Shown here: positions 3,674 through 56,697 of the stretch, piece by piece | Layout of the letters: every line of letters starts with the position of its first letter | Numbering within the stretch: position 1 is the stretch's first letter | Notes under the pieces: model-generated | Seen by the model: only the letters and a program-made list of their open reading frames with translations | Database searches by the model: none | What the model was told of the DNA's origin: nothing | Assembly: GCF_013378445.1 (NCBI RefSeq) | Contig: NZ_JABXYK010000007.1 | Span: forward strand, 1 to 64,000 | DNA length: 64,000 nt | Direction of reading: 5' to 3' | DNA from: Mycoplana rhizolycopersici | Lineage (GTDB): Bacteria; Pseudomonadota; Alphaproteobacteria; Rhizobiales; Rhizobiaceae | Translations under genes and position numbers: made by a program

Positions 3674-3698
3674 CGTGAACATCTCCTTTGCACCTTCC

Positions 3699-5066
3699 TC
3701 AGCGGTGGCGACCGCCGCCGTGCCTGACGACTTTGTGCCCGCCGCCGCCGCGATGCCCGCCACCCATGGAGTGCCGTCCTCGATTTGACGAGAGGTGGGT
3801 CTGATGGCGATTTCCCGGATGGCCGAGCACGGAATGGTTTCCGGTGGCATGTCTTTGGGCATGTGCCCCCGGTTTCGGTTGTTTTGCATGGCGCGTCACG
3901 TGCTGGGGCGAGTGCTTCGAACCGATGTGCGTATCGGAAGCGCCCTGTCGGTGGGAACCCGCAGCCTGCCTCGCGTTCCCCGGCCTGATGTTGCTTTCGC
4001 GATTACGAATTCTGTCCGCATCGACCTTGCTCTTCCGGATGTCGCCGACCGACACTTTGGGATGATTGCCAGAAATCGTATCCCCGTGCCCGCGCCTTAC
4101 ATTCTTTGCGCGCGCGGAAATGTTGTTGTTCCGGTTCGATTTGAAGTCGCTTTTCAACGCGTTGTGGTCGATCCTGTTGAACTGGTTCCGGTCGAACTTG
4201 ATTTTGGATCGGTCGACATTCTTCCAGTCGACGTCGTTGAACTTCAGCTTGTCGCGATCGATGTCGATGTTGTTAAAGCAGCCGTCGCAATCGATATCGA
4301 CGTCGCCTCCGTGCCAGTCGCCTCCCCACACGCCCCAGTCGTCCCAGTCCATCACGGATGCCCATGCGACGCCGGTGACGGCGGCAGCGAAAAATGGCGC
4401 TGTTGGATAATAGTAGTTCGGATAGGGATCGGGATAATAGGCAACCGGGGCAGGGGGATAGCCTGGCTCGTAGAGCATCTGCGGCTCATACTGCGGAACG
4501 TATATCTTCTCCGGGTCCTTGGATTGAATGACGACATTATCGCCCTCGTTCACGACAGTGATCTTGTCGTCGCTCTTGATGACGTTGCCCGCCACAGCCT
4601 TGTCACGCAGGGTTTGAACGGCGATCAGCACGTCCTTTTGCTGGAAGGACAGCGCACTGCCGAGCGCCTGGGTCCATTCGAGGTCGTCGCTCATCATCTT
4701 GACGACCTGGGGATAGTTCAGCAGCGAGATCACGCTGCCATCCCAGCTATCCTTGGGCTTCAGGTCCTTGTCTGATTTTGATTGCTGAAGGAACCGCTCT
4801 GCTTCCACGATCTGGAGGGGAAACAGCGAGGCAGACGAGATCACCGCGACGAGTTCATCAGGATAGAGCGCGATCCGTGCCACGAGCACTTCGAGTTCTT
4901 CCTCCGTGAGCAGGTCGGGCGTGTTCTCGCTGCCATCGACGGCAGGTTGGCTCTGAGAGCTGTCTTGCGCGCTGGCATTGGAAGCCAGAAGCGGGCTACT
5001 CGTAAGAAGGAGTGTGACGATCAACGAACCGACTGTGCGGCCGACGAGGCTGAAGGCAATGGTCAC
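3699..5066 (-). CDS. DUF3300 family exported protein with His/Gly-rich tail
   Basis: 455 residues from a GTG start at 5066, chosen because GGGAG lies nine bases upstream and because it gives a clean signal peptide (cleavage near residue 34, after ASAQ). An alternative GTG at 5117 adds 17 residues. Residues 50-215 show DUF3300 features: LLTEEELEVLVARIALYPDELVA, LLNYPQVVKMMSDDLEWTQALG and DPEKIYVPQYEP. A Tyr/Pro-rich stretch follows, then an Asp-rich segment (DVDIDCDGC, NNIDIDRDKL) and a basic tail rich in His and Gly, ending HGGGRHR. The tail suggests metal or polyanion binding, which is inference. It is the third gene of the leftward block, 71 bases after the phosphatase gene. Confidence 0.88.
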   Translation of the reverse strand: MTIAFSLVGRTVGSLIVTLLLTSSPLLASNASAQDSSQSQPAVDGSENTPDLLTEEELEVLVARIALYPDELVAVISSASLFPLQIVEAERFLQQSKSDKDLKPKDSWDGSVISLLNYPQVVKMMSDDLEWTQALGSALSFQQKDVLIAVQTLRDKAVAGNVIKSDDKITVVNEGDNVVIQSKDPEKIYVPQYEPQMLYEPGYPPAPVAYYPDPYPNYYYPTAPFFAAAVTGVAWASVMDWDDWGVWGGDWHGGDVDIDCDGCFNNIDIDRDKLKFNDVDWKNVDRSKIKFDRNQFNRIDHNALKSDFKSNRNNNISARAKNVRRGHGDTISGNHPKVSVGDIRKSKVDADRIRNRESNIRPGNARQAAGSHRQGASDTHIGSKHSPQHVTRHAKQPKPGAHAQRHATGNHSVLGHPGNRHQTHLSSNRGRHSMGGGHRGGGGHKVVRHGGGRHR

Positions 5067-5137
5067 TGTCAGATGCTCCCGGGGTAAAAATACGAATAGA
5101 AACGAGCTGTGAGGCACAGCGAACGCGGCATTTGCGG

Positions 5138-6124
5138 CTACTGCGGATACACCTTGTTCCAGTCGTTCTTCATGCTGACGATGTTCCAGCCGCGTTTCGG
5201 GCCCTCCGTCAGACCTCTATCAAGCTTCCCAAAGTGTGAGTTGCGGTCGTAGGCGTATTCTCTTTCGGCGTCGTCATGATGGACGATCAGGCCGAAGGTC
5301 CGCCCCGGTCCCGACGTCGTCCATTCCAGCATCTGGAAGTCGCCGTCCGAATTCCCGAAGGCAGCGATTGGGCGTCGGCCGATGTGGCCATAGATCCCTA
5401 TCGGCTTGCCCGGGCCATCGTCGATGAAGTCGACTTCCGGCAGGCGGACGATGGAGGGCTTTCCGTCCTTGTCGTCGTACCGCGACTTGATCGATGACCC
5501 GACGACGTTCTCGGCGGGAATTCCGTAGATCCGTTCCGTCCAGGGCCGCATGAACTCGATCCCGCCGCCGGAGACGATGAACACCTTGAACTCGTTTGCC
5601 TTGAGATAGGTGACCAGTTCGAGCATCGGCTGAAATACCATCGACGTATACGGCTTCCCGGTCTTCGGGTGCCTGGCGGTGTCGATCCAGTCGCCGGCAA
5701 TCCTGGTGAACTCGTCGCTGGTCATGCCCGCATGGGTGACGCCGACGAGGTCGACGAGCCCTTTTTCGCCGGAAGCGGCAACCCCTGCGAGATCGCCGGC
5801 AAGCACGGATCTGAAGGGTTCGGTCTCCTTCCATTCCGGGTGATCTGGGGCAAGCGCCTTGATGCGGTCCAGCGCGAAGGCTAGCTGGACATACATCGGC
5901 TGTTCGCCCCAGAGCGTGCCGTCATTGTCGAAGACCGCCACGCGATCGGCAGGCGCGACATGGTCCGGACCGCCCGCGGTCGAAACAGCCGTCACGAATT
6001 CGATGATGTTCCGCTTCGCTGCCCCGTCGTTCCAGGACGGCAGGTCATCCGCCATCGCCACGCTGGGAGCGATGAGCAAGGTGAGTGCCGCGGTCCAGGC
6101 GGCGACATGGCGGAGTATTGTCAT
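5138..6124 (-). CDS. Exported HAD-superfamily phosphatase
   Basis: 328 residues. A signal peptide (residues 1-25, ending SVAMA) directs it to the periplasm. HAD motifs are intact: DNDGT at residues 66-70 (nucleophile D66, acid/base D68), FIVSGGG as motif II, and FGNSDGD as motif IV. The start is supported by GGAGG seven bases upstream. It probably hydrolyses phosphomonoesters outside the cytoplasm; the substrate cannot be read from sequence. It lies between the 83-aa gene (33-base gap) and DUF3300 (71-base gap), all on the minus strand, consistent with an operon. Confidence 0.9.
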   Translation of the reverse strand: MTILRHVAAWTAALTLLIAPSVAMADDLPSWNDGAAKRNIIEFVTAVSTAGGPDHVAPADRVAVFDNDGTLWGEQPMYVQLAFALDRIKALAPDHPEWKETEPFRSVLAGDLAGVAASGEKGLVDLVGVTHAGMTSDEFTRIAGDWIDTARHPKTGKPYTSMVFQPMLELVTYLKANEFKVFIVSGGGIEFMRPWTERIYGIPAENVVGSSIKSRYDDKDGKPSIVRLPEVDFIDDGPGKPIGIYGHIGRRPIAAFGNSDGDFQMLEWTTSGPGRTFGLIVHHDDAEREYAYDRNSHFGKLDRGLTEGPKRGWNIVSMKNDWNKVYPQ

Positions 6125-6157: not shown

Positions 6158-6409
6158 TCAGGTTTCCGGGTTGCGTCGGATCCGATTGAGCGATTTCTGC
6201 AGGGCCTCGAATATCTCGTCCTCGATCTCCGCAAGCAGTCGCTGAAAGTCTTCGGCCTTGCTTCCATCGGAACCCCAATGCTCGAGCGCACAGCGGGCGG
6301 CCTCGTAGTCCTCGCAAAGCACCCGGAAATCCGGTGCGTTCGCATAGAGCCGCCGGATTGTGAGTTCATGGGCCGGAAAGTGGTCAATCACCGCGGTCAA
6401 GTCCGACAT
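6158..6409 (-). CDS. Small conserved-looking hypothetical protein
   Basis: 83 residues, soluble and probably all-helical. It opens MSDLTAVIDHFPAHELTIRRLYANAPDF and has a C-terminal charged helix (LLAEIEDEIFEALQKSL). There is no signal peptide. The ATG at 6409 has only a weak ribosome site; the frame stays open to 6466, but the upstream part looks non-coding. It is the first gene of the leftward block whose later members are all exported, and it faces moxR across a 280-base intergenic region carrying the 26-bp repeated element. I do not recognise a function. Confidence 0.7.
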   Translation of the reverse strand: MSDLTAVIDHFPAHELTIRRLYANAPDFRVLCEDYEAARCALEHWGSDGSKAEDFQRLLAEIEDEIFEALQKSLNRIRRNPET

Positions 6410-6469: not shown

Positions 6470-6495
6470 AGGTGCGAACAGGTACGAACATGTTC
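6470..6495. promoter_or_regulatory. 26-bp shared element, copy 1 (between divergent operons)
   Basis: The element consists of A, then two tandem decamers of form GGTNCGAACA (N is G, then A), then TGTTC. The last part forms the palindrome GAACATGTTC. An identical copy lies at 15331-15356. Copy 1 sits between the leftward 83-aa gene (start 6409) and rightward moxR (start 6690), so it could control both. A regulator binding site is the simplest reading. Confidence 0.6.
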
Positions 6496-6689
6496 GTCGG
6501 GTTGCGCAGCGGCATTCGACGAGAATTCTGTTGCAGCCCTTGCCGCCCGGTGGTGATCTGTCAGGTGTCGAAGCCGCGAAGATCTTATGCCAACCGCTCT
6601 TTGCCGCATTCTCCGACAGCGAGGATTTGTAGCCGTCTCAGACGCACCTTTGTGCTCCATGCATATGCCAACGGTCGAAGGACTAAACG

Positions 6690-7661
6690 ATGGGAAATCG
6701 AGACGACATCCGCGAACTTGCTGCGAGAATGGGACAATCGATTATCGGGCAGGAGGGGTTGATCGAGCGCCTCCTGCTGGGCCTCCTGTCGAATGGCCAC
6801 CTGCTTGTCGAAGGGCTGCCCGGCCTTGCCAAGACCCGCGCAATCAAGAGCCTCGCCAAGAACCTTGACGCCGATCTCTCGCGCATACAGTTCACTCCTG
6901 ATCTGCTGCCTTCCGACATCACCGGCTCGGAGGTCTATTTCAGCGAAGGCGGGAAGGGCGAGTTCAAGTTCCAGCAGGGGCCCGTCTTCGCCAACCTGAT
7001 CCTGGCGGACGAGATCAATCGCGCACCGGCCAAGGTCCAGTCGGCGCTGCTGGAGGCGATGGAGGAGCGGCAGGTCACGGTCGGTGGCGAGAGCCATCCG
7101 CTACCGGAACTCTTCCTCGTCATGGCGACGCAGAACCCCATCGAGCAGGAAGGCACCTATCCGTTGCCCGAGGCGCAGCTCGACCGCTTCCTCATGCACA
7201 TCCGCGTCGATTATCCGGATGCGGCCTCCGAGGCCGCAATCATGAAGCTTGTCCGTTCGGAGGAAAAGACGACCCATGGCAAGGCGGCCGCCGCGGAGAA
7301 ACTCGCCGCCGATGTCGTGCTTGCATCGCGCCGGGAAATTTCCGAAATCAACGTCTCCAAGGCCATCGAGGACTATATCGTCGCACTCGTGATGGCGACG
7401 CGATATCCTGACAAGATCGATGCCGACCTGGCAAAGTGGATCCAGGTCGGCGTCAGTCCGCGCGGCGTGATCGGGTTGGACAGGGTCTCGCGCGCCCACG
7501 CCTGGATGGACGGCCGGGATTTCGTCACGCCCGACGACGTCCAGGCGACCGTCCACGGCATCTTCCGCCACAGGCTCGTGCTCTCCTACGAGGCGCATGC
7601 GGGCGGGACGACTGCGGACCAGGCGATCGACAGGATCGTCGAGAAGGTGGCGACGGCTTGA
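6690..7661 (+). CDS. moxR: MoxR-family AAA+ ATPase
   Basis: 323 residues, usual for the family. Walker A is at residues 41-50 (GLPGLAKTR, K48) and Walker B at 103-110 (LILADEIN). The downstream MATQNPIEQEGTYPLPEAQLDRF segment is a MoxR signature. MoxR ATPases act as chaperones that mature or activate partner complexes together with von Willebrand A proteins. It is the first gene of a rightward operon with DUF58, DUF4381, BatA, BatB and BatD genes (16-base gap to the next). The start has GAAGGA eight bases upstream. Confidence 0.95.
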   Translation: MGNRDDIRELAARMGQSIIGQEGLIERLLLGLLSNGHLLVEGLPGLAKTRAIKSLAKNLDADLSRIQFTPDLLPSDITGSEVYFSEGGKGEFKFQQGPVFANLILADEINRAPAKVQSALLEAMEERQVTVGGESHPLPELFLVMATQNPIEQEGTYPLPEAQLDRFLMHIRVDYPDAASEAAIMKLVRSEEKTTHGKAAAAEKLAADVVLASRREISEINVSKAIEDYIVALVMATRYPDKIDADLAKWIQVGVSPRGVIGLDRVSRAHAWMDGRDFVTPDDVQATVHGIFRHRLVLSYEAHAGGTTADQAIDRIVEKVATA

Positions 7662-7677
7662 CAGGGAGGGACTTGCG

Positions 7678-8673
7678 ATGGCGATTTCTCTACCCGCCTT
7701 CGGCAGGACGAAAGGGATGGCGCCGCCGGCTGCGAAGGGCACGGAAGGTGTCTATGTCACGGTCGATGATCTCGCCGCACTCGAGCCCATCGCCTGCGAC
7801 CTGACCTTTCTGCGCAAGGCACCGGTCCGCCGGCTGCTCGCCGGCCGCCACGAGTCGCGCATGCGCGGTCGCGGCCTGAGCTTCGAGGAACTGCGCAACT
7901 ACATGCCCGGCGACGACATCCGCACCATCGACTGGCGCGTTACCGCCCGTACGGGGCAGCCCTTCGTGCGGGTCTATGACGAGGAGAAGGATCGACCCGC
8001 GCTGATCGTCGTCGACCAGCGCGTCAACATGTTCTTCGGCAGCCGGCGTTCGATGAAGTCGGTTGCGGCGGCGCAAGTCGCCGCCCTTTGTGCCTGGCGT
8101 GTCATGGCGCTGGGCGACCGGGTCGGCGGCCTGGTGTTCAACGACGGGGAGCAGGAAGCCGTGCGCCCGCATCGCAGCCGCGAAGCCGTCATTCGCTTTT
8201 CCGATGCGATATCGGTCAAGAACAGGGCACTCAGCGCGACGTCGGACGCAACGCGGGCGCCCGGACAACTCGACGCCGTCCTCTCGAAGGTTGCCGCAGT
8301 CGCCCGACACGACCATCTGGTGATCGTCGTCAGCGATTTCGACGGGCATGGGCCGGCTACACGCGACCTTCTCTTGAAGATGTCGGTCGCAAACGACGTG
8401 ATCGCCATCCTCATCTACGATCCCTTCCTGCTCGAGCTTCCGCGCCAGGGCGACATGGTGATCAGCGGCGGGGCGCTGCAGGCGGAATTGCAGTTCGGCC
8501 GCAGCAATGTCCGCGATGCCGTCGACAGCTTCGCCCGCAATCGGGGCCGGGACCTCTTGTCCTGGCAGAAGGAGATGGGGCTGCCGATGCTGCCGGTCTC
8601 CGCTGCGGAGGAGGTTGCCCCGCAGTTGCGCACGCTCCTCGGTCAGCTCGCATGGCGGCAGAGGAGGCGTTGA
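7678..8673 (+). CDS. DUF58 domain protein
   Basis: 331 residues; the ATG at 7678 has GGGAGGG upstream. The DUF58 signature is clear at residues 60-100: ESRMRGRGLSFEELRNYMPGDDIRTIDWRVTAR. The following region (PALIVVDQRVNMFFGS and later LVIVVSDFDGHG) forms the VWA-like fold in which DUF58 usually sits. There is no transmembrane segment, so it is likely cytoplasmic or membrane-associated through partners. DUF58 genes almost always follow moxR, and here the gap is 16 bases. The next gene begins at the base after its stop codon, suggesting translational coupling. Confidence 0.93.
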   Translation: MAISLPAFGRTKGMAPPAAKGTEGVYVTVDDLAALEPIACDLTFLRKAPVRRLLAGRHESRMRGRGLSFEELRNYMPGDDIRTIDWRVTARTGQPFVRVYDEEKDRPALIVVDQRVNMFFGSRRSMKSVAAAQVAALCAWRVMALGDRVGGLVFNDGEQEAVRPHRSREAVIRFSDAISVKNRALSATSDATRAPGQLDAVLSKVAAVARHDHLVIVVSDFDGHGPATRDLLLKMSVANDVIAILIYDPFLLELPRQGDMVISGGALQAELQFGRSNVRDAVDSFARNRGRDLLSWQKEMGLPMLPVSAAEEVAPQLRTLLGQLAWRQRRR

Positions 8674-9204
8674 ATGGAGCCCGCCACCGCGTCCCCGCCG
8701 ACCGACCCCATGCTGGCAGCCACCTTGCGCGAACTGGCCGACATCGCCCTGCCGCCGCCGGTATCGATGATGCCGGCGACATGGGGATGGGTGGCGCTGG
8801 CCGCACTCATTGCCTTGGCGCTTGCCTTCGCCCTCTGGCGCTGGCGTCGGCATCGGGCACAGAACCGCTATCGACGCGAAGCGCTCGCGGAACTCGCGGC
8901 GCTGGAGGCAGCCGTGGGACAGGCAGCCGGCCGGGCGGACGCCCTGCAGCGCCTGCCGTCGCTGATCAAGCGCACGGCACTTGCCGTCTGGCCGCGCGAC
9001 GCAGTGGCTGAACTGGCCGGACAGGATTGGTCGGACTTCCTCAGGACACACGCAGGCAAGGCCGTGCTCGACGACGAGACCTATCGCTTCTTTGCCGAAA
9101 CCGAGTATCGCCTGCCGGCGGCCGGACCTGCGAATGAAGACATGGCCCGGCGGGCGTTTGCCGGCGCGCGCCGATGGATAGAGGGCCACGATGTACACCC
9201 TTGA
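8674..9204 (+). CDS. DUF4381 membrane protein
   Basis: 176 residues. A single transmembrane helix lies at about 36-55 (WGWVALAALIALALAFALW), followed by a basic stop-transfer stretch and a cytoplasmic helical domain containing the family-typical LPSLIKRTALAVWPRDAVAELAGQDWSDFL. It abuts the DUF58 stop codon and overlaps the next gene by 14 bases. DUF4381 proteins are standard members of MoxR/Bat operons and probably anchor or adapt the complex at the inner membrane. Confidence 0.9.
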   Translation: MEPATASPPTDPMLAATLRELADIALPPPVSMMPATWGWVALAALIALALAFALWRWRRHRAQNRYRREALAELAALEAAVGQAAGRADALQRLPSLIKRTALAVWPRDAVAELAGQDWSDFLRTHAGKAVLDDETYRFFAETEYRLPAAGPANEDMARRAFAGARRWIEGHDVHP

Positions 9205-10195
9205 CCATCCCTGGCTACTGTTGCTTCTGCCGCTTCCGTTTCTCGTCTGGTGGCTTCTGCCACCCTACCGCGAGCAGACCGCGGCGGTGCGCATCCCCTT
9301 CTTCGAAGACATCACCAAGGCTGCCGGTATCGGCCCGACCGAAGGTTCCGTCGTGCCGCGGGCGAACCTGCTGCAGAAGATCATCGGCCCGATCTGCTGG
9401 GTTCTCGTGGTACTGGCGCTGGCAAGGCCGCAATATGTCGAGCCGCCGATCGAGAAGACCGAGCCTCAACGCGACCTGATGCTGGCGCTCGATCTTTCGC
9501 AGTCGATGGACACGCGTGACTTCCGCGATCCCGAGGGCAATCTGGACGCCCGCGTCGATGCCGTGAAGACGGTGGTCGCCGACTTCATCGAGCGCCGCCC
9601 GAACGATCGACTTGGCCTTGTCGCCTTCGGGGACGCGCCTTACCCGCTCGTGCCCTTCACGATGGACCATGGCACCGTGCGCACCATGCTCGCCGACACG
9701 CTGCCGGGAATGGCCGGGCCGCGAACGGCGCTCGGCGATGCGATCGGCCTTTCGATCAAGATGTTCGAACAGAGCCAGGCACCGGACAAGGTGTTGATCG
9801 TGCTGACGGACGGCAACGATACGGCCAGCAAGATGCCGGCGGACAAGGCCGCGGAGATCGCGAAAGACAATCATGTTCGCATCCATACGGTCGGGATTGG
9901 CGATCCGGCCGCGCGGGGGGAAGAGAAGCTTGATGCGGCTGTTCTGGAGAAAATCGCAACCACGACCGGCGGGCGCTACTTCTTCGGCCAGGACCAGAAG
10001 TCGCTCGCCGACATCTACACGCTGCTCGACGAGATCACGCCGGCCAACCAGAAGACCCTGAGCTGGCGGCCACGCATAGAGCTGTTCCACTATCCGCTCG
10101 GTGCTGCCGTGCTTCTGGTGCTTGCCTATCACGTCGTGATGTGGCTCCTGTCGATCGGTGCGTCCCACCGCCGGGACAGCGGGGCAGGGGCATGA
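9191..10195 (+). CDS. batA: BatA-like von Willebrand A membrane protein
   Basis: 334 residues. There are N-terminal (about 7-23) and second (about 66-78) membrane helices, then a VWA domain with intact MIDAS motif DLSQS at 101-105, and a C-terminal helix near 305-322. The PPYREQTAAVRIPFF start is typical of the aerotolerance-type BatA family. It overlaps the upstream gene by 14 bases and the downstream BatB gene by four (ATGA), so translation is likely coupled. The VWA domain would face the periplasm and bind a divalent-metal-dependent partner. Confidence 0.93.
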   Translation: MYTLDHPWLLLLLPLPFLVWWLLPPYREQTAAVRIPFFEDITKAAGIGPTEGSVVPRANLLQKIIGPICWVLVVLALARPQYVEPPIEKTEPQRDLMLALDLSQSMDTRDFRDPEGNLDARVDAVKTVVADFIERRPNDRLGLVAFGDAPYPLVPFTMDHGTVRTMLADTLPGMAGPRTALGDAIGLSIKMFEQSQAPDKVLIVLTDGNDTASKMPADKAAEIAKDNHVRIHTVGIGDPAARGEEKLDAAVLEKIATTTGGRYFFGQDQKSLADIYTLLDEITPANQKTLSWRPRIELFHYPLGAAVLLVLAYHVVMWLLSIGASHRRDSGAGA

Positions 10196-11760
10196 TCGCC
10201 GAGTTTCACTTCCTGCGGCCTTGGTGGCTTCTGGCAGTAGCGGCAGCGCTCCTTCTGATCTGGCTGCTGGATCGGCAATCGGACATGCGGTCGAGGTGGA
10301 AGAACTTCATCGCTCCAAATCTGCTCGATCATCTTCTGGTCGGCCGCGAACGGGCTAGCGGTCTGCGACCCGTCCACCACATCGCCTTCCTGATCGCATT
10401 GTCAGGGATTGCCGTTGCGGGGCCGACCTGGGAGCGCGAACGCCCGCCCTTCGTGGAGGATACGGCACCGCTGGCGGTGGTGATCGACCTCGGCCCGACG
10501 ATGAACGCCACCGACATCACGCCGACCCGGCTCGAGCGCGCAAAGCTGAAGGTCCAGGACATCATGGCGCGGCGGCAGGGCGCGCGCACGGCGCTGTTTG
10601 CCTATGCCGGCTCTGCGCATATGGCGCTGCCGCTGACCGACGACGCCTCGCTGGTCGCCACCTATCTCGCCGCCCTCTCGCCTGCGGTGATGCCGGTTCC
10701 CGGCAAGGATACCGCGAGTGCCCTGGAAGCCGTCGAGGCAGCACTCGCCGACGAGACGGCCCCCGGCACGATCCTGTTCTTGACAGATGGCGTCGAGCGC
10801 GGTGCCTTCCCCGCCTTCAGTGGCTACAAGGGACGCAACGACCTGATGGTCCTTGGCATCGGTACGCCGGAAGGTGGCCCTGTCAAAATCGGAGACGGCG
10901 AGTATCTGACCGACAGCACGGGTGCGCGCGTTCTGGCGCAATTCGATGTCGACGCCTTGAAGGAACTTCAATCATCGTCCCCCGTACAGGTCGCGACCGT
11001 CACGCTCGATGACGGCGATGTCGACTGGATCGTCCGCCGCATCCAGACTTCGTTCGCGCAGAAGTCCGAGGAGGGGCTGACGCGCTGGCGCGATTTCGGC
11101 TGGTACCTGACCATCCCTGTGGCCTTTCTAACGGCGCTAACCTTCCGCCGCGGGCAGAAGATCCACTGGCTTGGTGCTCTCTTCCTTTTTCTCTCACTTG
11201 GAGGCGCGCCACCGGCGCAGGCTGCCGATTTCGCCGATCTCTGGCTGACACCGGACCAGCAGGGGCGGCGGGCCTTCGACCGCGGCGACTATCAGGCGGC
11301 GGGGGAGCATTTCATTGACCCGGCCTGGCTGGGCGCTGCGCTCTACCGCGCCGGGCGCTATCAGGACGCGATCGATGCGTTCGCGCGATCGACCACGGCC
11401 GAGAGCTACTTCAACCAGGGCAATGCCCTGATGCACCTGGACAAGGCGGATGAAGCAATTGAGGCCTATCAGCAGGCGTTGAAGCAGCGCCCGGAATGGG
11501 AAGAGGCGAAAGCCAACATGGCGCTGGCGGAGCGCCGCAAGAAGCAGAAGGACGACGAAGAAGAGGAGCAGCAGCAGGAGGCTGCGGATCTCTCGCCGGA
11601 CAAGATCCAGTTCGACGACAAGGGCAAGCGCGGCAAGGAGGGCAGGGTCGAAGGTGGTGCGCAATCGGCGGAATTGTGGATGCGCAACATCCAGATCTCG
11701 CCTGCCGATCTCCTGGCGCGCAAGTTCGCAATCGAAGCATCCGGAGCGGCAAAACAGTGA
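10192..11760 (+). CDS. BatB-like VWA protein fused to a TPR domain (BatB-BatC type)
   Basis: 522 residues from the ATG at 10192 (four-base overlap with batA). Two N-terminal helices precede a VWA-like domain. The MIDAS position reads DLGPT (99-103) instead of DxSxS, so both metal-binding serines are missing although the first aspartate and the later LTDG are kept. Further membrane helices lie near 306-342. The C-terminal part from about residue 350 contains TPRs (AFDRGDYQAAGEHF, YFNQGNALMHLDKADEAIEAYQQAL) and a highly charged linker. The fusion of BatB with a BatC-like TPR is known in proteobacteria. The degenerate MIDAS suggests a structural rather than metal-dependent binding role. Confidence 0.9.
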   Translation: MIAEFHFLRPWWLLAVAAALLLIWLLDRQSDMRSRWKNFIAPNLLDHLLVGRERASGLRPVHHIAFLIALSGIAVAGPTWERERPPFVEDTAPLAVVIDLGPTMNATDITPTRLERAKLKVQDIMARRQGARTALFAYAGSAHMALPLTDDASLVATYLAALSPAVMPVPGKDTASALEAVEAALADETAPGTILFLTDGVERGAFPAFSGYKGRNDLMVLGIGTPEGGPVKIGDGEYLTDSTGARVLAQFDVDALKELQSSSPVQVATVTLDDGDVDWIVRRIQTSFAQKSEEGLTRWRDFGWYLTIPVAFLTALTFRRGQKIHWLGALFLFLSLGGAPPAQAADFADLWLTPDQQGRRAFDRGDYQAAGEHFIDPAWLGAALYRAGRYQDAIDAFARSTTAESYFNQGNALMHLDKADEAIEAYQQALKQRPEWEEAKANMALAERRKKQKDDEEEEQQQEAADLSPDKIQFDDKGKRGKEGRVEGGAQSAELWMRNIQISPADLLARKFAIEASGAAKQ

Positions 11761-13133
11761 CCTTTACCCCCTCCTTCTTCGCCCGTCTTCTCGCGCTGCT
11801 GCTTGGGCTGTTCGTGGGGGCGTCCACCAGCCAGGCCGCCGATCCGCTTGCGCGCGCTGCGCTGCAATCAAAGGGGACGCTGTATGTCGGTCAGGAGGTC
11901 CTCGTCGACATCGATGTCCTTGTTCCGAACTATTTCCTGCAGCCGCCGCAGTTCCCGCCGATCGATCTTCCGGGCGCGATCGTGACGCTTCAGGACGGGC
12001 AGGCCCTGAACCTCAACGAGACGATCGAAGGGACCGCATATTCGGGCATTCGACGCACCTATGTCGTCACGCCGCAGCGCGCAGGCGCGTTCGCCCTGCC
12101 GCCGGCTGAAATCCCGTTCGGCTACGCCGCAGTGCCGGGGCAGGTGTCGCAGGGCAGGGTCACAATTCCTCCGCTGCGATTTTCCGTGCAGGCAGCTCCT
12201 GGTGTCGAAGGCGGCCCGGGCGTCGTGGCGGCCAAGGTAAGCGTCACGCAGGAACTCGATCAGGACCCCTCGAAGCTAAGCGCCGGCGACACGCTGGTGC
12301 GGACGATTACCGTCCGGGCCGAGGGCATGCGTGCCATGATGATCCCCGAGCCGGACCTTGTGGCGCCCGACGGCGTGCGCATTTACCACCGGGACCCGTC
12401 GCTCTCTGATGAAACGGACCGCAACGGGCAGGCGGTCGCAGGCATACGCAAGGATGTGGTGAGCTATCTCTTTGCCGATCCCGGCACCTATGTGCTGCAG
12501 GCGATCGAACTGAGCTGGTTCGACCCGGCGACGGAGAAGACGCAATCGGCGGGAACTCCGGAGGTGACTGTGACGGTCGCCCCGGCACTCGCATCGCCGC
12601 CGGCAATCGCGCCGCCCGCCTCGCCATCCGATGAGCCGCCGTTCGACTGGCTCCGCCTGGGCACCGTCGTCGTGGGAGCATTGGCCACCGGTCTCGTTTT
12701 GGCCCTTCTCGCGCGCGGCCTGTCCCGGCTCGAGGCACGGTGGGCCGAGCGCCGGTCACAGCAGCGACAATCGGAGGAAGCCTATTTCCGGCACGTCGTG
12801 GATGCCTGCAACGACGGTTCGGCGGCCGGGATCGGCAAGGCCATCGATGCGTGGTCGCGCAAGGCGGGGATTGCTCCGCTGCAATCCTGGCTCGGGCGCT
12901 TCGCCGACGCGGACACACTGACGGCCTACAATGCCCATCTGCAGGCCATCTATGGAGTTCCGACAGGGCGCGAGCCGCTGGCGACCACAACCGTGCTTTT
13001 GTCCGGCCTTGGCAAGGCTCGGAATGCGTGGCTAGCCGCTGCCGGCAAGAATGGAAAGGCGCACCAGTCACCGGCACTGCCGCCCCTCAATCCGGTGGAG
13101 CATGCCCGGCCGGATGTCGAAACCGTTCAGTAG
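11757..13133 (+). CDS. batD: BatD-like exported membrane protein
   Basis: 458 residues from a GTG that overlaps the BatB stop (GTGA). A signal peptide (ending STSQA, about residue 26) is followed by beta-rich domains of the BatD type (LYVGQEVLVDIDVLVPNYFL, VTPQRAGAFALPPAEIPFGY). A transmembrane helix lies near 300-322, then a cytoplasmic helical tail. It is the last gene of the six-gene moxR operon; a hairpin follows at 13273. Confidence 0.9.
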   Translation: MTFTPSFFARLLALLLGLFVGASTSQAADPLARAALQSKGTLYVGQEVLVDIDVLVPNYFLQPPQFPPIDLPGAIVTLQDGQALNLNETIEGTAYSGIRRTYVVTPQRAGAFALPPAEIPFGYAAVPGQVSQGRVTIPPLRFSVQAAPGVEGGPGVVAAKVSVTQELDQDPSKLSAGDTLVRTITVRAEGMRAMMIPEPDLVAPDGVRIYHRDPSLSDETDRNGQAVAGIRKDVVSYLFADPGTYVLQAIELSWFDPATEKTQSAGTPEVTVTVAPALASPPAIAPPASPSDEPPFDWLRLGTVVVGALATGLVLALLARGLSRLEARWAERRSQQRQSEEAYFRHVVDACNDGSAAGIGKAIDAWSRKAGIAPLQSWLGRFADADTLTAYNAHLQAIYGVPTGREPLATTTVLLSGLGKARNAWLAAAGKNGKAHQSPALPPLNPVEHARPDVETVQ

Positions 13134-13272
13134 CGCTTGAGTTTGCGAGGGGCGATTGACGACGTTGCCGCAGAAACGCAGGCGCGCTCAGCAGTGGTAA
13201 CGAAGTGCAGGCGCATCGCTGACCAGAACCGGAAAGAACGACTGATCGGCGGCGCATTTGGAAGGGGGTTGC

Positions 13273-13298
13273 GGGAAGGCAGGATTGCCCGCCTTCCC
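13273..13298. terminator. Stem-loop between convergent batD and arylsulfatase genes
   Basis: The arms GGGAAGGC and GCCTTCCC enclose ten bases. It lies between the ends of two convergent genes and so could terminate both. There is no long T run on either side, so it is a weak or factor-assisted terminator at best. Confidence 0.5.
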
Positions 13299-13311
13299 AC
13301 CACTTGTCTGA

Positions 13312-14967
13312 TTAGCGCGGAGCCAGACCTTCCAGTTCGTTCAGCCGCTGAAGCGCGGCCTGCTGCTGCAGCCAGGCATAGTTGATGCCGCTGGCATTGA
13401 GCGTGCTGCCCGTCTGGAACGGATACTCATTGAAGTCCGAGAAGAACTCCTTGATCTTCGCTTGTATCGGCACGAGGAGCCACATGTTTCGCCCCAGGAA
13501 TTCCATCGCGCCGCCACCTTCTTCCATGCCGCGCTCGTACGGGTCCATGCGCAGGTTGGTAATCAGCGCCCAGCTAGGCGTCTCGCGTGTTGCCGTTGCG
13601 ATGTTTCCGTGGCTGGCGATGGCGAAGCTCAGCTTCCAGTCATTCCAGCGGATGGCATTAAGGTTGCCGCCCTGGTCGAAGTAGTAGACCGTATCGCGCG
13701 GCGGCTCTTCGGCTTCCCCTTTCAGGAGGCTGGTGAGATCATATCCGTCGAGATGAACCTTGAAGTTCTTGTTCCCGGCCTGGAACCCCTGCTTCATCTG
13801 CTCCTTGAGGTCGGGAATTCCGGCTGCTGCCGCAAACGTCGGCATCCAGTCCATCAGCGTCACCGGCTCGTTGATCTGCGTGCCGGGTTTCACCACGCCC
13901 GGCCACCGCACCATCATCGGGATGCGCATGCCGCCTTCCCATGTCGTGCCCTTCTCGCCATGGAACGGCGTCATCGCACCATCCGGCCACAAGGCCAGCT
14001 CCGCGCCATTGTCGGTCGTGTAGAGCACGATCGTGTCCTCAGCGATGCCGAGATCGTCTAGCTGCTGCAGGAGCTGCCCGACGTGCCCGTCATGCTCGAC
14101 CATCCCGTCGGCATGGATGCCCTTGCCCGTCTTGCCAAGGGAGTCCGGCTTGAGATGCGTGAAGACGTGCATGCGCGTCGCGTTGAACCAGACGAAGAAG
14201 GGCTTGTCGGCCTCATGCTGCCGGCCGATGAAATCCTTGGCTGCGGCCAGGAACTCCTCGTCGACAGTTTCCATGCGCTTGGTGTTCAGCGCGCCGGTGT
14301 CCTCGATCTTGCCGTCGGCGCTTGACTTGATGACGCCGCGCGGACCGAAGTTCTTCCGGAACTCCGGATCCTTCGGATAGAAGTAGCCTTCGGGCTCTTC
14401 CTCCGCGTTAAGATGGTAGAGGTTTCCGAAGAATTCGTCGAAGCCGTGATTGGTCGGCAGATGCTCGTCGCGGTCGCCAAGGTGGTTCTTGCCGAACTGG
14501 CCCGTCGCATAGCCCTTGGATTTCATGACGTCGGCGATGGTGGGCATCCAGTCCTGGATGCCATGCGGATCGCCCGGCATGCCGATCGTCAGCAATCCTG
14601 TGCGGAACGGCTCCTGCCCAAGGATGAACGACGCGCGACCCGCCGTGCAGCTCTGCTGTCCGTATGAATCCGTGAAGATCGCGCCTTCGGCTGCGATCCG
14701 GTCGATGTTCGGCGTGCGGTATCCCATCAGCCCCATCGTATAGGCGCTGATCTGCGGCACGCCGATGTCGTCGCCGAAAATGACGAGAATGTTCGGAGGC
14801 TTCGTGCCGCCGGCGGCCGGCTGTTCCTGCGCCCGGGCCGTGCCCGGGGCACCTGACGCAATGGCTGCAGAGGCAGCCGCGAGCACTGTGCCGCCCAGCA
14901 GCAGATCGCGGCGATTGATGTTCAGCGGACGGTCGGCCTTGGATTTTTCGGCATCTGGAAAGCTCAT
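13312..14967 (-). CDS. Tat-exported arylsulfatase (formylglycine sulfatase family)
   Basis: 551 residues. The N terminus carries a twin-arginine signal (NRRDLLLGG, residues 18-26), with a hydrophobic stretch and cleavage near residue 46. The alkaline-phosphatase-fold features are the metal-binding FGDDIG at 64-69, the sulfatase motif C-T-A-G-R at 107-111 (C107 is the residue converted to formylglycine), TTDNGAE, and GEKGTTWEGGMRIP. The C-x-A-x-R form fits the motif recognised by formylglycine-generating enzyme, but no such enzyme is encoded in this window. It probably hydrolyses sulfate esters in the periplasm. It is divergent from the 409-aa membrane protein gene, with the second 26-bp element between them. 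Confidence 0.93.
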   Translation of the reverse strand: MSFPDAEKSKADRPLNINRRDLLLGGTVLAAASAAIASGAPGTARAQEQPAAGGTKPPNILVIFGDDIGVPQISAYTMGLMGYRTPNIDRIAAEGAIFTDSYGQQSCTAGRASFILGQEPFRTGLLTIGMPGDPHGIQDWMPTIADVMKSKGYATGQFGKNHLGDRDEHLPTNHGFDEFFGNLYHLNAEEEPEGYFYPKDPEFRKNFGPRGVIKSSADGKIEDTGALNTKRMETVDEEFLAAAKDFIGRQHEADKPFFVWFNATRMHVFTHLKPDSLGKTGKGIHADGMVEHDGHVGQLLQQLDDLGIAEDTIVLYTTDNGAELALWPDGAMTPFHGEKGTTWEGGMRIPMMVRWPGVVKPGTQINEPVTLMDWMPTFAAAAGIPDLKEQMKQGFQAGNKNFKVHLDGYDLTSLLKGEAEEPPRDTVYYFDQGGNLNAIRWNDWKLSFAIASHGNIATATRETPSWALITNLRMDPYERGMEEGGGAMEFLGRNMWLLVPIQAKIKEFFSDFNEYPFQTGSTLNASGINYAWLQQQAALQRLNELEGLAPR

Positions 14968-15026
14968 TTTCTGCTCCTCGATCAGCTTGAATGCGTGGAA
15001 AGCCTGGGATTATGCGAGGTTGTCGT

Positions 15027-15047
15027 GAGCCGGCCATCGGCCGGCTC
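15027..15047. promoter_or_regulatory. Perfect inverted repeat upstream of the arylsulfatase gene
   Basis: The arms GAGCCGGCC and GGCCGGCTC are separated by three bases. It lies about 60-80 bases upstream of the sulfatase start, so it could form a stable hairpin in its 5' leader or act as an operator. No T run follows on either strand. Confidence 0.45.
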
Positions 15048-15236
15048 CATCAGCGCAGGAACTTCATGGTTGGACGAAGCGATATCGGGCGTCGTCGACC
15101 GATGGTCCAAAAAGGGAAATGGGAAAGGAACTGATCTCGACAAGTCTCCCTCGTGGCGCTCGCAAGAAATCTTGCGTTCCGTTCTGACAGTGCGGTCGCT
15201 GCCTGGATTGTCGCGGATGTAACTCCCGCCACTCCT

Positions 15237-15278
15237 GCACTCACGGATGGGGTCCCCGCACTCACGGATGGGGTCGCC
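15237..15278 (+). repeat. 21-bp tandem duplication
   Basis: Two adjacent 21-base units beginning GCACTCACGGATGGGGTC, at 15237-15257 and 15258-15278, differing only at the third-last or last-base level. It lies in the intergenic region between sulfatase and membrane-protein genes. It may be a simple slippage duplication or a doubled binding site. Confidence 0.75.
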
Positions 15279-15330
15279 TCCCGCGGCTGTGTGCGACCGG
15301 TACATACTTGCTCAATCACCTAAAACCGAC

Positions 15331-15356
15331 AGGTGCGAACAGGTACGAACATGTTC
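15331..15356. promoter_or_regulatory. 26-bp shared element, copy 2
   Basis: Identical over 26 bases to 6470-6495: two tandem GGTNCGAACA decamers followed by TGTTC, containing the palindrome GAACATGTTC. It lies 101 bases before the start of the rightward membrane-protein gene and 364 bases from the start of the leftward sulfatase gene. No other copy was noticed in the window. Confidence 0.6.
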
Positions 15357-15456: not shown

Positions 15457-16686
15457 ATGAATGAAGCTCACTCCGAGCCCTCCTCTGACCTGGGACCAAA
15501 AGATCCCCGGACGGCCTCCAACGCGACGGAGCTTGGCGAGTTTCTTGCCTCGCATGGCGGTCCGTTCTTCGAATTGCAGGAGCAACTCAAGTTGTTGCGC
15601 CAAAGTGCGTTGCGTGCCCCCGCGCGTGCTGCGCTATTCGTGGCGCTGGCATGGGGCGTGCCGTTCCTGCTCGGCCTTCCGCGCAGCTTTTCGCTGGACC
15701 ACGGCCGCGGTGCCTATCTGGCCGATCTTGGGGTGTGGGCGAAGTTCTTCATCGGAATCGGCGCTTTTGTTCTCGCCGAGCAGCAAGTGGAACGAGGGCT
15801 ACAGGCAAAATTATCGCAGATGGTCCGCGCACCGATCATTGCGCCGGCGTCCATTCCAGAAGCTGCGGCGATCGTTTCGGCGGCGCTTCGGAAGCGCGAT
15901 TCGCGCGCAGCAGAACTCGTGTGCTTGCTGATGGCGATATTTGCGTCCTGTCTCTCCTATCTCAACTTCCACACGGTCGGTACCTCTTCCTGGGCGGTTG
16001 AACACCTCCCGGCAGGCAACAGGATCTCGGCGGCAGGATGGTGGTCGATATGCTTCAGCCTGCCGCTATTTGTCTTCCTCTTCTTGCGCGGGATCTGGCG
16101 GCATTTCGTATGGGCGCAACTTTTGCGTGGGCTTGCAAGGCTGGACTTGCGCCTGGTCGCTACCCATCCTGACGGCAAGGGCGGGCTGGCCTTTCTTGCG
16201 CAATACCCCAATGCGTATGTTTTCTTTGTTTTCGGGATGAGCTGTGCCGTGGCCGCAGCGGTTGCCAAGAACTTTCTTCACGAAGGCTTGACGATGACCA
16301 CCTTCACCATGGTGATGAGCGGCTGGCTGGCGATCGTTATCAGCTTCTTCGCCTATCCGCTGTCCGCGTTTACGCCTCCGCTTTCCCGCCTCAGGGAAGA
16401 GGGGCTGGCGCTGCTTGGCGCACAGGCCACCCAATACTGCAGGACGGCAGAACGGAAGGCAATCGGGCGAAACGTATTTTCTGATCCCACACCCGAACCT
16501 GACAGTGAGATGTCGGATCCGGCAAAGCATTATGAGGCATCGCGAAAGCTTTCGGTCGTCCTGGTCAGTCGATCAGCAGTGGTTCCGGTTGCCGCGGGTG
16601 CTCTCATCCCATTCGCCGTCGCAGGAGCGACGAAGCTGCCATACAAGGAGGTCGTGTCCGTCCTGAAGAAGCTCCTCCTTCTTTGA
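15457..16686 (+). CDS. Polytopic inner-membrane protein of unknown function
   Basis: 409 residues from the ATG at 15457, which has GGGAG upstream; an in-frame ATG 18 bases earlier lacks a ribosome site. About six membrane helices are visible (around 57-75, 93-108, 154-172, 195-213, 248-268 and 285-306), with a soluble N-terminal segment and a hydrophilic loop before a weakly hydrophobic C terminus. I recognise no catalytic or transport motif. It is transcribed away from the sulfatase gene across the region holding the second 26-bp element, which suggests joint regulation with the envelope block. Confidence 0.8.
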   Translation: MNEAHSEPSSDLGPKDPRTASNATELGEFLASHGGPFFELQEQLKLLRQSALRAPARAALFVALAWGVPFLLGLPRSFSLDHGRGAYLADLGVWAKFFIGIGAFVLAEQQVERGLQAKLSQMVRAPIIAPASIPEAAAIVSAALRKRDSRAAELVCLLMAIFASCLSYLNFHTVGTSSWAVEHLPAGNRISAAGWWSICFSLPLFVFLFLRGIWRHFVWAQLLRGLARLDLRLVATHPDGKGGLAFLAQYPNAYVFFVFGMSCAVAAAVAKNFLHEGLTMTTFTMVMSGWLAIVISFFAYPLSAFTPPLSRLREEGLALLGAQATQYCRTAERKAIGRNVFSDPTPEPDSEMSDPAKHYEASRKLSVVLVSRSAVVPVAAGALIPFAVAGATKLPYKEVVSVLKKLLLL

Positions 16687-16851
16687 TTTGCCCGAGAAAC
16701 TCACGGGCGGGAGCCAATTGGGGACACTGCTTCGGCGCTGGCGATCGCGGCGGCATCAAGCGTTAACCTTCCACTCTGTTAGCGTTTGGAACATCGAACG
16801 AAATCACCATCGATAGCATCTCGAAGGACTGCAAGGATCGGGGAGAGAGCC

Positions 16852-19800
16852 ATGTCGAACAGCGGGTCTGGTAAAAGGAGCACGTTCCAGCGACGCCATC
16901 GCAGGCCGCCCTCCATCGCACGCCGGAAGTCGCCCCATCCGCTGCGCAAGGCCGCCCTTGCGAGTATCTTCTTACTTCCCGATGCCGGCATTGCGCTCGC
17001 GGACTGCAATCCGGCGGCTCCTTCCTCGGGAGACACGGTCGTCTGCGATGGCAATCCGGCCGGATACACCACCAACGGCCTCGATGAACTCTATGTTGAC
17101 ATCCTCGCTGGCACAAACTTCAACGGGCCGTTCAGCGCCTCGAACACAGGCTTGCTTGACGTCACCAGTGCCGGCAATCTGAACAGTGTGACGCTCGACG
17201 ACAACGATGTCGTGATTTTCGAGAATTCCGGCAACATGAACAATGGGCTCGTCATCACCGGAGATGGGAACTACTCCGTCGTGAACAATGCCGGTTCTGC
17301 GATCAATTCACCGTTCAGCTTTACCGGTGACAGCGATAACAGCATCGCCAACAGCGGAACGCTGAACAACGGTGTAACGATCGACGGCAACGGCACGACA
17401 GGGATCGTCAACAATTCGGGCGCATTCATCAACAACGGGGTGTTCGTCATCGGCGCAAGCGAGACGGACATAACCAACTACGGCACCATTCAGAGCACGG
17501 TCGCACTTGGAAGCGGCGATGATACGATCATCAACTACGATCCGGGCTCCATCAATGGAAGCGTCGACCAGGGGAGCGGCAACGATCTCTTCCGCATGGA
17601 AGGTGGCCGCGTCAGCGCCAGTGTTCAGCAGGCCGCCGGCCGCGACACCTTTCGGCTGATCGGTGGTGAGGTCACCGGCAACCTGGAAGCGGGCACCGGG
17701 CGGGATACGATGGTGTGGACCGGCGGTTTGATCGGCGGCATCGATATGGGCGACAACCGCGACCGCGCGCTGTTCCGGGGCCTTGACGACGCCGAGCTCA
17801 AGACAATCCGCGTTGACGGCGGAATGAACAGGGACACCCTGACATGGGAAGATACCCAAGGCGCCGGTCCCCAGAGACTTGTGAATTGGGAGCTCATTGC
17901 CCTTACGGAGAGTTCGTCCCTGCAGATGACGGAAAACCTTACGCTCGGGGACAGCGGGACGGCCACCGGAACGTTGACCATCGACGAGACGAGCACGCTC
18001 TTCGGCGGCGGGCGTCAAACGTCGGTCCTGCCCTTCGGATCTGCCCTCGTGAGCGTCGAGAACAGCGGCGTGATCGACCTGGCATCCGGCTCCAACTCGA
18101 CGACCGACAGCCTGACGATACAGGGCGACTACCTTGGCGATTCCGGGCAGTTGCTCCTCCAATCGGTGCTGGGCGATGACACTTCGCCGGCAGACAAGCT
18201 CGTCGTCTCTGGCGGTGAAGCGTCCGGTGTGACCCGAGTGGGTGTTGAGAATGTTGGCGGTGAGGGCGCGCGAACCCAGGAAGATGGCATCCTCGTCGTG
18301 GAAGCGACCAATGGCGGCACTACCGCGCCACGATCCTTTCGCCTGCTCCACCGGGTCACCGCCGGGGCCTACGAGTACTTATTGTTCAGAGGCGGCGAAG
18401 ACGATGAGACGGCCGAAAACTGGTACCTGCGCAATCATCTCCGCGATGACGCGGATGGAGATGGGGACGGGGACGGCGACGGTGATGGCGATGGCGATGG
18501 GGACGGCGACGGAGACGGAGACGGAGACGGGGACGGCGATGGTGACGGGGACGGCGATGGGGATGGCGACGGCGACGGAGACGGCGACGGCGACGGCGAT
18601 GGAGATGGAGACGGCGACGGGGACGGCGACGGCGATGGGGACGGCGACGGAGATGGGGATGGCGACGGTGATGGGGACGGCGACGGCGATGGGGACGGGG
18701 ACGGCGACGGCGACGGCGATGGCGACGGAGATGGAGACGGCGACGGGGACGGCGACGGCGACGGCGATGGGGATGGCGACGGTGATGGGGATGGCGACGG
18801 GGACGGCGACGGCGACGGCGATGGGGATGGGGATGGGGATGGTGACGGGGACGGCGACGGCGACGGCGATGGGGATGGGGATGGGGATGGTGACGGGGAC
18901 GGCGATGGAGACGGCGACGGGGACGGAGACGGGGATGGAGACGGCGATGGCGACGGCGATGGCGACGGAGACGGAGATGGTGGCGGCGGGAGTGGGTTCA
19001 TACCGTCCTACCGGCCGGAAGTTCCAATTTTCACCGTTCTCCCCAGCGTATCGCGCGGTCTGCTCCGCTCGACGCTCGGGACGTTCCACGAACGTCACGG
19101 CGAGCAGAACTGGTTCGACAGCGAGAATCCGAAGCACCTCGTTTGGACGCGGATGTTCGCAGAAAGCTACAGTCAGGATCTGGAAGGAATTCTGAACCCC
19201 AGTTTCGACGGGACGACCTGGGGTATCCAGGCCGGCGCGCCTGTCTACAAGGTCGAGCATGCCAATGGCCAGGACGATACGTTGGGCCTCTTCCTGGGCT
19301 ATAGTCGTGCCAGCGGCGAGATCGAAGGATTTGCACTCGGTCGCTTCGACATAACCGTCGGCACACTGGATATCGATGCCTACAGCATTGGCGGCTACTG
19401 GACCCACACGTGGCCCGGCGGAGGCTATGTCGACGCGGTTCTCATGCATTCCTGGCTGGACGCGGAAACGAGTTCAATCGGCCGATACACCTCCAATGTC
19501 GACGGAACTGCGCTCACGGCTTCGCTCGAGGCTGGGACGAAATTTGACGTTCATGAGAATTGGTCCATCGAACCGCAAGCGCAGTTGATTTGGCAGCATC
19601 AGGACTTCGATACAGTCCAGGATCCCGGCGGGCGCATCGCCATTGACGATGAAAATGCCTGGACGGGGCGCATCGGCGCACGGCTCGTCAGCAGCTACGA
19701 TGTGAATGACGCGAAGGTCAATCCATTCCTTCTCGCCAACCTCTGGCACGAATTCGGTGCCGATAGCACAGTCGCATTCAACGCCACTGGCTTCACCTCG

Positions 19801-45442: not shown

Positions 45443-45447
45443 GCCCG

Positions 45448-45468
45448 GCCCGCAATATCCACGCGGGC
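45448..45468 (+). other. Stem-loop between bcsN and bcsA
   Basis: The arms GCCCGC and GCGGGC flank a nine-base loop, followed by the T-poor tract TAATTTCTCG. It could attenuate transcription into bcsA or affect transcript processing. The stem is short, so this is tentative. Confidence 0.3.
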
Positions 45469-45530
45469 TAATTTCTCGTTAACGCGACGCGGCTAGTTTT
45501 ACCAAGCCGCCCGCATACGAAGGAATGGGA

Positions 45531-50188: not shown

Positions 50189-50452
50189 TCGATGCGGCGG
50201 AACTGGCCGAATCATTTACCCTGCGTTTACCATGATCTGGCTTTCTCGACCCTGGGCTGTTTTTGGGTGGAATCACCTGAAGGCCGCCCCCGTAGCAGGA
50301 TTGCACCGGCGGTGCTTGGCGCCGGATAGTTACCGGTCGCTTGCACGCCGCTTGGCCTCGTCGCCTCCGGCGCGGTTCTTGCGACGGATCGCCTTAAACG
50401 GAATGACGTGCGTGATGTGTCATGCATGCCTGTGATGGAGACTGGCATCGCG

Positions 50453-55165: not shown

Positions 55166-55178
55166 GGCGGCTCCCTAT

Positions 55179-56486: not shown

Positions 56487-56666
56487 GCTAAAGCCCCGGA
56501 TGGTTGATATCGAGCGCACGCCCCGGCGACATTGCGCGTTCGGCATCGTCCGATGTCTTGCGCTCGAACCGTCTCGCTTCGCCGCGGCCGTACCTCAGGG
56601 TATGCCCTTCGACGAAAATCGCAACCATGGCCAATTCCTTCCGGGGCGATGGGACACTGACAACCG

Positions 56667-56689
56667 TCCGGGGGAGGGAGCCCCCGGGA
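56667..56689 (-). other. Stem-loop between prkA and yeaH
   Basis: The arms TCCGGGGG and CCCCCGGGA enclose the loop AGGGAG; the element begins eight bases after the prkA stop codon. There is no T run. It may act as an mRNA stabiliser or partial terminator that lets prkA be expressed above yeaH and spoVR. Confidence 0.45.
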
Positions 56690-56697
56690 GATACGCA

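Follow-up and report, generated by a model that had tools for sequence, protein, structure and literature searches.

Membrane-bound one-component regulators of the ToxR/CadC type (ToxR, TcpP, CadC, and VtrA) have an N-terminal winged-helix-like domain, one transmembrane segment, and a C-terminal extracytoplasmic part. HilA has a DNA-binding domain fused to a TPR region. The tox-box of ToxR is given as TNAAA-N5-TNAAA in the part of PMC8517210 drawn on here, and OmpR-family proteins generally recognize direct repeats according to the corresponding part of PMC5693285. The stretch analyzed in this study, referred to as the window, comprises 64,000 nucleotides of Mycoplana rhizolycopersici (the first 64 kb of contig C7, NZ_JABXYK010000007.1, in a genome of 78 contigs). 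It contains two identical copies of a 26-bp element, AGGTGCGAACAGGTACGAACATGTTC, and a gene for a candidate regulator, designated REG. It is likely, with a probability of roughly 0.84, that the element is the operator of REG, a ToxR/CadC-like membrane-bound one-component regulator coordinating a module of genes around the two copies.

The predicted layout of REG is that of the ToxR/CadC type, and the tox-box has the same 10-bp tandem step as the predicted operator of REG (same parts of PMC8517210 and PMC5693285). Unlike the ToxR/CadC type, the DNA-binding domain of REG lacks a match to Pfam PF00486, and its C-terminal part has TolB_N/TPR-like matches. The predicted operator is also GC-richer, occurs in palindromic or everted form as well, and would serve sulfatase and MoxR-Bat genes. 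The predicted combination of a winged helix with TPR is a likeness to the HilA/EilA type, and the NCBIfam HilA/EilA model had a weak match (E value of 6e-6, far under the cut-off) in the C-terminal part of the Rhizobium sullae ortholog. In contrast to the HilA/EilA type, REG has one transmembrane segment by hydropathy, and the HilA/EilA model has no match in its DNA-binding part. Literature searches found nothing on this system.

Two of the predicted targets, the DUF2950 and DUF3300 genes, are the same two adjacent genes as a pair described in root nodule bacteria. The pair was induced in two RNA-seq studies, and its products have signal peptides and no known function, as given in the part of PMC4653623 drawn on here, where the gene neighborhood gave no more hints. 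In the window, the pair falls within the predicted REG regulon, together with sulfatase, HAD, and MoxR-Bat genes. If this assignment is right, an uncharacterized type of membrane-bound regulator has a precisely predicted operator and a set of targets, both conserved in several families of the order, and the DUF3300/DUF2950 genes and the unusual sulfatase/MoxR-Bat module gain a common predicted controller.

A rare element between divergent genes

The identical 26-mers had been reported in an earlier note on the window, and both copies were read at the positions listed in Table 1. The computed evidence covers how identical, rare, and conserved the site is, how it occurs together with REG, and how a helix residue agrees with presence of the motif. 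The same note had considered chance identity very unlikely. A 25-mer pattern allowing up to 3 mismatches had 2 matches in the window, compared with 0 expected from 100 dinucleotide shuffles. Throughout the genome (5,603,916 bases), a 20-mer pattern allowing up to 2 mismatches matched at exactly 2 places, which are the two elements, and its reversed control had 0 matches at the same tolerance. With a looser 18-base pattern (up to 2 mismatches), there were 17 genome matches beyond the 6 on the two elements, versus 6 for the control, so weaker sites elsewhere are possible; one of the 17 was at 1 mismatch and the rest were at 2. The sequences flanking the two copies look unlike when compared by eye, which argues that the element is not part of a longer duplicated segment.

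Both copies lie between divergent genes, as previously observed: copy 1 between the leftward 83-aa open reading frame (ORF) and the rightward moxR, and copy 2 between the leftward sulfatase gene and the rightward 409-aa gene. Copy 1 is predicted to be the operator of the 83-aa/HAD/DUF3300/DUF2950 unit on its left and the moxR-bat operon on its right, and copy 2 is predicted to be that of the sulfatase gene on its left and the gene for the 409-aa membrane protein on its right.

Conservation of the element at the gene clusters of relatives

Orthologous loci had been proposed as a check on a shared regulatory site, and in relatives the element was found in front of the same genes. Exactly two zero-mismatch copies are present in 3 of 7 genomes of the genus and none in the other 4. 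The same 3 genomes have moxR at 99 to 100% identity, and the other 4 hold only a paralog of about 45%. In G004, the element is kept at copy 2 although the adjoining sulfatase differs (54% identical).

Rhizobium sullae has three elements, of which one departs from the tandem pattern by a mismatch. One is ahead of the sulfatase gene, another separates moxR-bat from REG, and the last is ahead of HAD-DUF3300-DUF2950. G237 and G363 have elements ahead of HAD-DUF3300-DUF2950 and also ahead of sulfatase genes (up to 2 mismatches), and one element-preceded sulfatase gene of G363 is on a separate contig. The order of element, REG, sulfatase gene, and moxR-bat is found in Flavimaribacter (G025), Pararhizobium ih9 (G126), and G195, where a second half-site pair, 9 bp apart, is located at the REG-sulfatase junction. 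The element stands ahead of single units without the others in several genomes: HAD-DUF3300-DUF2950 in R. sullae and Pararhizobium YC-54, moxR-bat in YC-54, and the sulfatase gene in R. sullae and G363. Genomic rarity and orthologous conservation thus support the regulator site that the earlier note had proposed to be common to all of the flanking genes. Control of the 409-aa gene is less sure, because this gene adjoins the element only together with another unit.

When a collection of 84,980 named genomes was scanned for a 22-base pattern, 17 stretches were returned; ten Hyphomicrobiales genomes accounted for 16 of them, and the other was from an Escherichia record. All but one of the 16 are at this gene set (L069 among them, judged by its correspondence with the R. 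sullae locus L011). When the plasmid collection was searched at the DNA level with the element or the promoter region, only R. sullae was added; three other records were weak single matches.

Two matches in other settings were recorded. In Pararhizobium YC-54 (L070:1418-1443), a perfect tandem element precedes genes for an aldehyde dehydrogenase, an Fe-alcohol dehydrogenase, and a metallo-beta-lactamase-fold protein, which are a possible extra target. The match in Escherichia sp. ESNIH1 (L065:1316-1337) is strong (score, 42) and about 3 kb from a phage portal gene; it is possibly due to chance.

REG and its co-occurrence with the element

The earlier note overlooked REG, the likely regulator, which is encoded inside the window. 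In the protein, a conserved N-terminal domain (about 108 residues) is followed by one hydrophobic segment and then TPR matches. A putative winged helix (OmpR/PhoB-like) was placed at about residues 18 to 125. After the transmembrane segment, relatives of REG have weak TolB_N/FlgO-like matches, and the window protein has TPR. The transmembrane segment is predicted in all 29 rows of the REG clade or G212 (Kyte-Doolittle mean of 1.78 to 2.84 over 19 residues), with the predicted hydropathy peak 72 to 113 residues past the start of the recognition-helix motif in these rows.

REG, called at an E value of ≤1e-120, was present in 13 of 394 Rhizobiaceae genomes, 12 of which have the element or a rearranged form of it beside REG or the cluster of REG. 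In 9 of the 13, this is the tandem element with up to 1 mismatch; in 3 others it is rearranged, as a palindrome between REG and the sulfatase gene (G021 and G373) or an everted pair beside REG (G225). In the 13th genome, G006, the REG copy has 90% identity across 449 of 600 residues, and HAD is cut to 116 aa. The G006 cluster (L079, G006:C38) is decaying, with an altered C-terminal part of REG, DUF2950 and DUF3300 kept, and moxR-bat and sulfatase genes not adjoining.

The tandem pattern (up to 1 mismatch) matched 10 of 13 genomes with REG versus 15 of 381 without it (Fisher P = 3.8e-11). When a G021 match located elsewhere was left out, the comparison was 9 of 13 versus 16 of 381 (P = 2.2e-9). 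The reversed-pattern control matched 20 of 394 genomes by a hand count of the listing, so the matches in genomes without REG, including that of G212, are at background level. REG orthologs are directly beside the element in R. sullae, G164, G025, G126, G195, and Stappia sediminis, and each of the ten Hyphomicrobiales genomes returned by the collection scan has REG.

In an independent test, 397 genomes of the order were searched with the protein alone, which led to 14 genomes, including that of the window. The 13 orthologs in other families were L109 to L121; L112, which by its position is the Stappia genome found earlier by motif, was set aside. A half-site pair with up to 3 mismatches was present upstream in 11 of the 12 independent orthologs, and in 9 of the 12 it was inside a fixed upstream window, for which the null rates were 29 of 1400 shuffles and 2 of 140 real windows. 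The pairs of L120 (a perfect palindrome) and L121 (one mismatch) are 89 and 117 bp upstream of the ORF, respectively, and were found in a whole-locus scan, which was needed because the alignment started inside the protein.

A residue of the presumed recognition helix

The motif EARRLR occurs in the presumed recognition helix of 26 site-bearing REG rows (one genome twice), and it is also found in the site-less decayed copy of G006 and in a distant paralog from G212. The G212 paralog is outside the REG clade (support, 0.975) and has two sites around its own cluster. EAGRLR or a similar sequence with Gly is found in the paralogs L105, L106, L107, and L122 and in the ortholog L116. Four proteins with a REG-type domain are encoded in the M. 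rhizolycopersici genome; its paralogs L105 to L107 and the 35% paralog L122 had no site in a whole-locus scan. The Arg/Gly pattern was noticed post hoc, and its Gly side consists of five proteins. We would give even odds that REG belongs to a family of membrane-anchored winged-helix/TPR regulators that is not yet catalogued and in which the EARRLR versus EAGRLR position helps to set the reading of GTRCGAACA. If true, this would be the first specificity code for the REG-type family and would permit its regulons, among them the one with the DUF3300/DUF2950 pair of root nodule bacteria, to be mapped in any genome.

The elements of G212 (L056, G212:C153) are at 10361 and 14141. One precedes a gene for a metallo-beta-lactamase-fold protein followed by the REG-like paralog, and the other precedes a DUF1254/DUF1214 gene; the motif is the same, with a distant paralog and a different gene context.

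Predicted mode of action

REG is predicted to read the half-site GTRCGAACA. In this genus, the operator would consist of two tandem half-sites at a spacing of one helical turn (10 bp), joined by an inverted third half, TGTTC. Other relatives would instead have the half-sites as a palindrome (GTACGAACATGTTCGTAC) or an everted pair. The cytoplasmic winged-helix-like domain, probably in dimers or higher oligomers, would bind at least two half-sites on one face of the DNA, and the TolB_N/TPR-like extracytoplasmic part at the C terminus presumably senses a periplasmic or envelope signal. Binding of REG would change transcription of the flanking units and so might coordinate an extracytoplasmic module of arylsulfatase, HAD hydrolase, DUF3300, DUF2950, MoxR-Bat, and outer-membrane proteins. 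In this scheme, physical binding, membrane topology, the signal, and the sign of regulation are parts that we infer.

Clusters without REG and alternative explanations

The moxR-bat and sulfatase genes are kept, with REG not adjoining, in Sinorhizobium meliloti (L009), S. medicae (L010), and a second cluster of G004 (L045). With up to 4 mismatches allowed, the 20-mer pattern had no match in L009 and two in L010, both at 4 mismatches and one of them inside a VWA gene. A scoring matrix gave nothing above 4 in L009 and L010 and one match of 4.9 in L045, compared with 29 to 49 for real sites. Half-site pairs in L009 and L010 had 3 mismatches and irregular spacing, and L045 had none. A histidine kinase and a NarL-type regulator are encoded in place of REG in L009 and L010, which suggests a regulator replacement, with a two-component system in place of REG and the element.

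In these two loci, a TTGGNCCAA-type palindrome is common to the upstream regions of the sulfatase gene and the 409-aa homolog, and it might belong to the kinase/NarL system standing in for REG. A shared-motif search of the Sinorhizobium loci gave nothing clearly above shuffles, and two of the regions with the palindrome are orthologs, so the palindrome is no more than a lead. The second G004 cluster (G004:C23:9000-28900) has a moxR-bat-sulfatase arrangement with a MoxR that is 89% identical, and neither REG nor the element adjoins it.

Several results weigh against REG as a winged-helix regulator that acts through the element. No site was found upstream of REG in the window (positions 1 to 853), unlike the situation in many relatives, and the REG of G006 has EARRLR, yet no element was found there. 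In G164, the element adjoins REG, and a moxR-bat cluster on another contig lacks it, which also speaks against a strict rule. Among the independent orthologs, L116 shows nothing better than a weak pair with 2 mismatches some 520 bp upstream, and L117 and L118, counted as site-bearing, are listed with one internal stop. No Pfam model matched the DNA-binding domain of the window protein or its relatives, and no NCBIfam model matched the N-terminal domain of the R. sullae and Stappia orthologs; Pfam PF00486 (Trans_reg_C) had 19 above-cut-off matches elsewhere in the genome, none of them to REG. Profile comparison of the REG domain with OmpR-family domains gave a nonsignificant probability of 4%, and a PDB sequence search with the DNA-binding domain returned nothing relevant. 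An AlphaFold2 model of the trimmed domain from six natural sequences had a helix-helix-helix-long helix-hairpin order (pLDDT, 90; pTM, 0.85). In favor of a winged helix, the top three Foldseek matches of this model among 350,542 PDB chains were the OmpR/PhoB-family DNA-binding domains of ArlR, Deinococcus radiodurans RrA, and PhoB, although at E values (0.19 to 1.4) that are below significance, so that the ranking is suggestive. A first, untrimmed model with disordered ends gave no useful fold matches, and OmpR-family domains were not ranked. Furthermore, histidine kinase and NarL-type response regulator genes adjoin the cluster in S. meliloti, S. medicae, and R. sullae, and an OmpR-type pair adjoins it in G237.

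The last of these points raises the possibility that the element is the common operator of another regulator, such as a two-component response regulator whose gene is close to the cluster in relatives. This seems unlikely. The stretches with the NarL-type regulator in S. meliloti and S. medicae are those with the low matrix scores described above, and the best matches to the NarL-type regulator in the window genome are 36 to 45% identical. NarL- or OmpR-type regulators were not recognized beside the element in the other loci read, in contrast to REG, found in every Hyphomicrobiales genome of the scan. Two-component regulators were set aside as the general cognate because they do not track the element in the loci read.

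LexA half-sites are GAAC/GTTC, and those of GlpR/DeoR-type repressors are TGTTCG/CGAACA, which resemble the element. It is very improbable that the element is the site of a general regulator of either kind. The additional matches to the 18-base pattern would leave room for weaker sites, but just two sites are strong, the linked genes are neither SOS nor glycerol genes, and the site tracks REG across genomes. A dispersed repeat or the footprint of a mobile element, as two identical 26-mers within 9 kb might suggest, was rejected and has next to no likelihood: there are 2 copies in 5.6 Mb and two per genome in all element-bearing genomes of the genus (3 of 7), the flanks differ, and the element still precedes the same genes after rearrangement. 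The half-site arrangement varies by lineage yet remains in the REG promoter region. An operator of REG is the reading preferred here.

Genes around the two copies

The features of the window are listed in Table 1. Homologs of the longer ORF that includes the 83-aa ORF adjoin the element in several relatives. A twin-arginine-like N terminus and a CTAGR site were read from the sequence of the sulfatase; in the arylsulfatase literature, SMa1683 is a table entry in PMC2912261 and AslA1 is a row in PMC4941405, to the extent that these sources were drawn on. No Pfam or NCBIfam family matched the 409-aa membrane protein. The order of the 409-aa gene followed by the autotransporter gene is kept in G001 and G004, and the autotransporter is a possible target by its position.

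Table 1. Positions of the element copies, REG, and neighboring genes in the window
Feature	Position	Strand	Remarks
REG, candidate cognate regulator, 602 aa	854..2662	+	longest ORF starts at 590, homology at 854
DUF2950 gene, predicted target	2717..3889	-	Pfam PF11453, E 3e-88
DUF3300 gene, predicted target	3699..5117	-	Pfam PF11737, E 6.7e-45; longest ORF, overlaps DUF2950 ORF
HAD-family hydrolase, predicted target	5138..6124	-	signal-peptide-like start; Pfam PF12710; relative of solved 4ovy, E 1.3e-126
83-aa ORF, first gene left of copy 1	6158..6409	-	ATG at 6409
Element copy 1	6470..6495	+	two tandem half-sites GTRCGAACA (10-bp step) plus inverted TGTTC
MoxR AAA+ ATPase, predicted target	6690..7661	+	Pfam PF07726, E 4.3e-64
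DUF58 protein	7597..8673	+	Pfam PF01882
DUF4381 protein	8674..9204	+	Pfam PF14316
VWA protein, BatA-like by position	9191..10195	+	Pfam PF00092
VWA/TPR protein, BatB/BatC-like	10141..11760	+	
BatD-like protein	11496..13133	+	Pfam PF13584, E 1.5e-7
Arylsulfatase-type sulfatase	13312..14967	-	Pfam PF00884; 7aj0, E 5.8e-51
107-aa leftward ORF, doubtful	14982..15305	-	between sulfatase gene and copy 2
Element copy 2	15331..15356	+	identical to copy 1
409-aa membrane protein	15457..16686	+	ATG at 15457; longest ORF from 15439
Autotransporter	16786..19956	+	downstream of 409-aa gene; Pfam PF03797, E 4.6e-46

The R. sullae cluster also encodes a protein with multi-heme cytochrome c-like (CXXCH) and TPR matches (L011:9709-11988). 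Further along the window, positions 44504 to 52645 hold cellulose synthesis genes for BcsN, a cellulose synthase-like glycosyltransferase with PilZ, BcsB, and a TPR protein, and at 53627 to 58647 a SpoVR-like gene is located near a PrkA kinase gene, with a 455-aa ORF between them.

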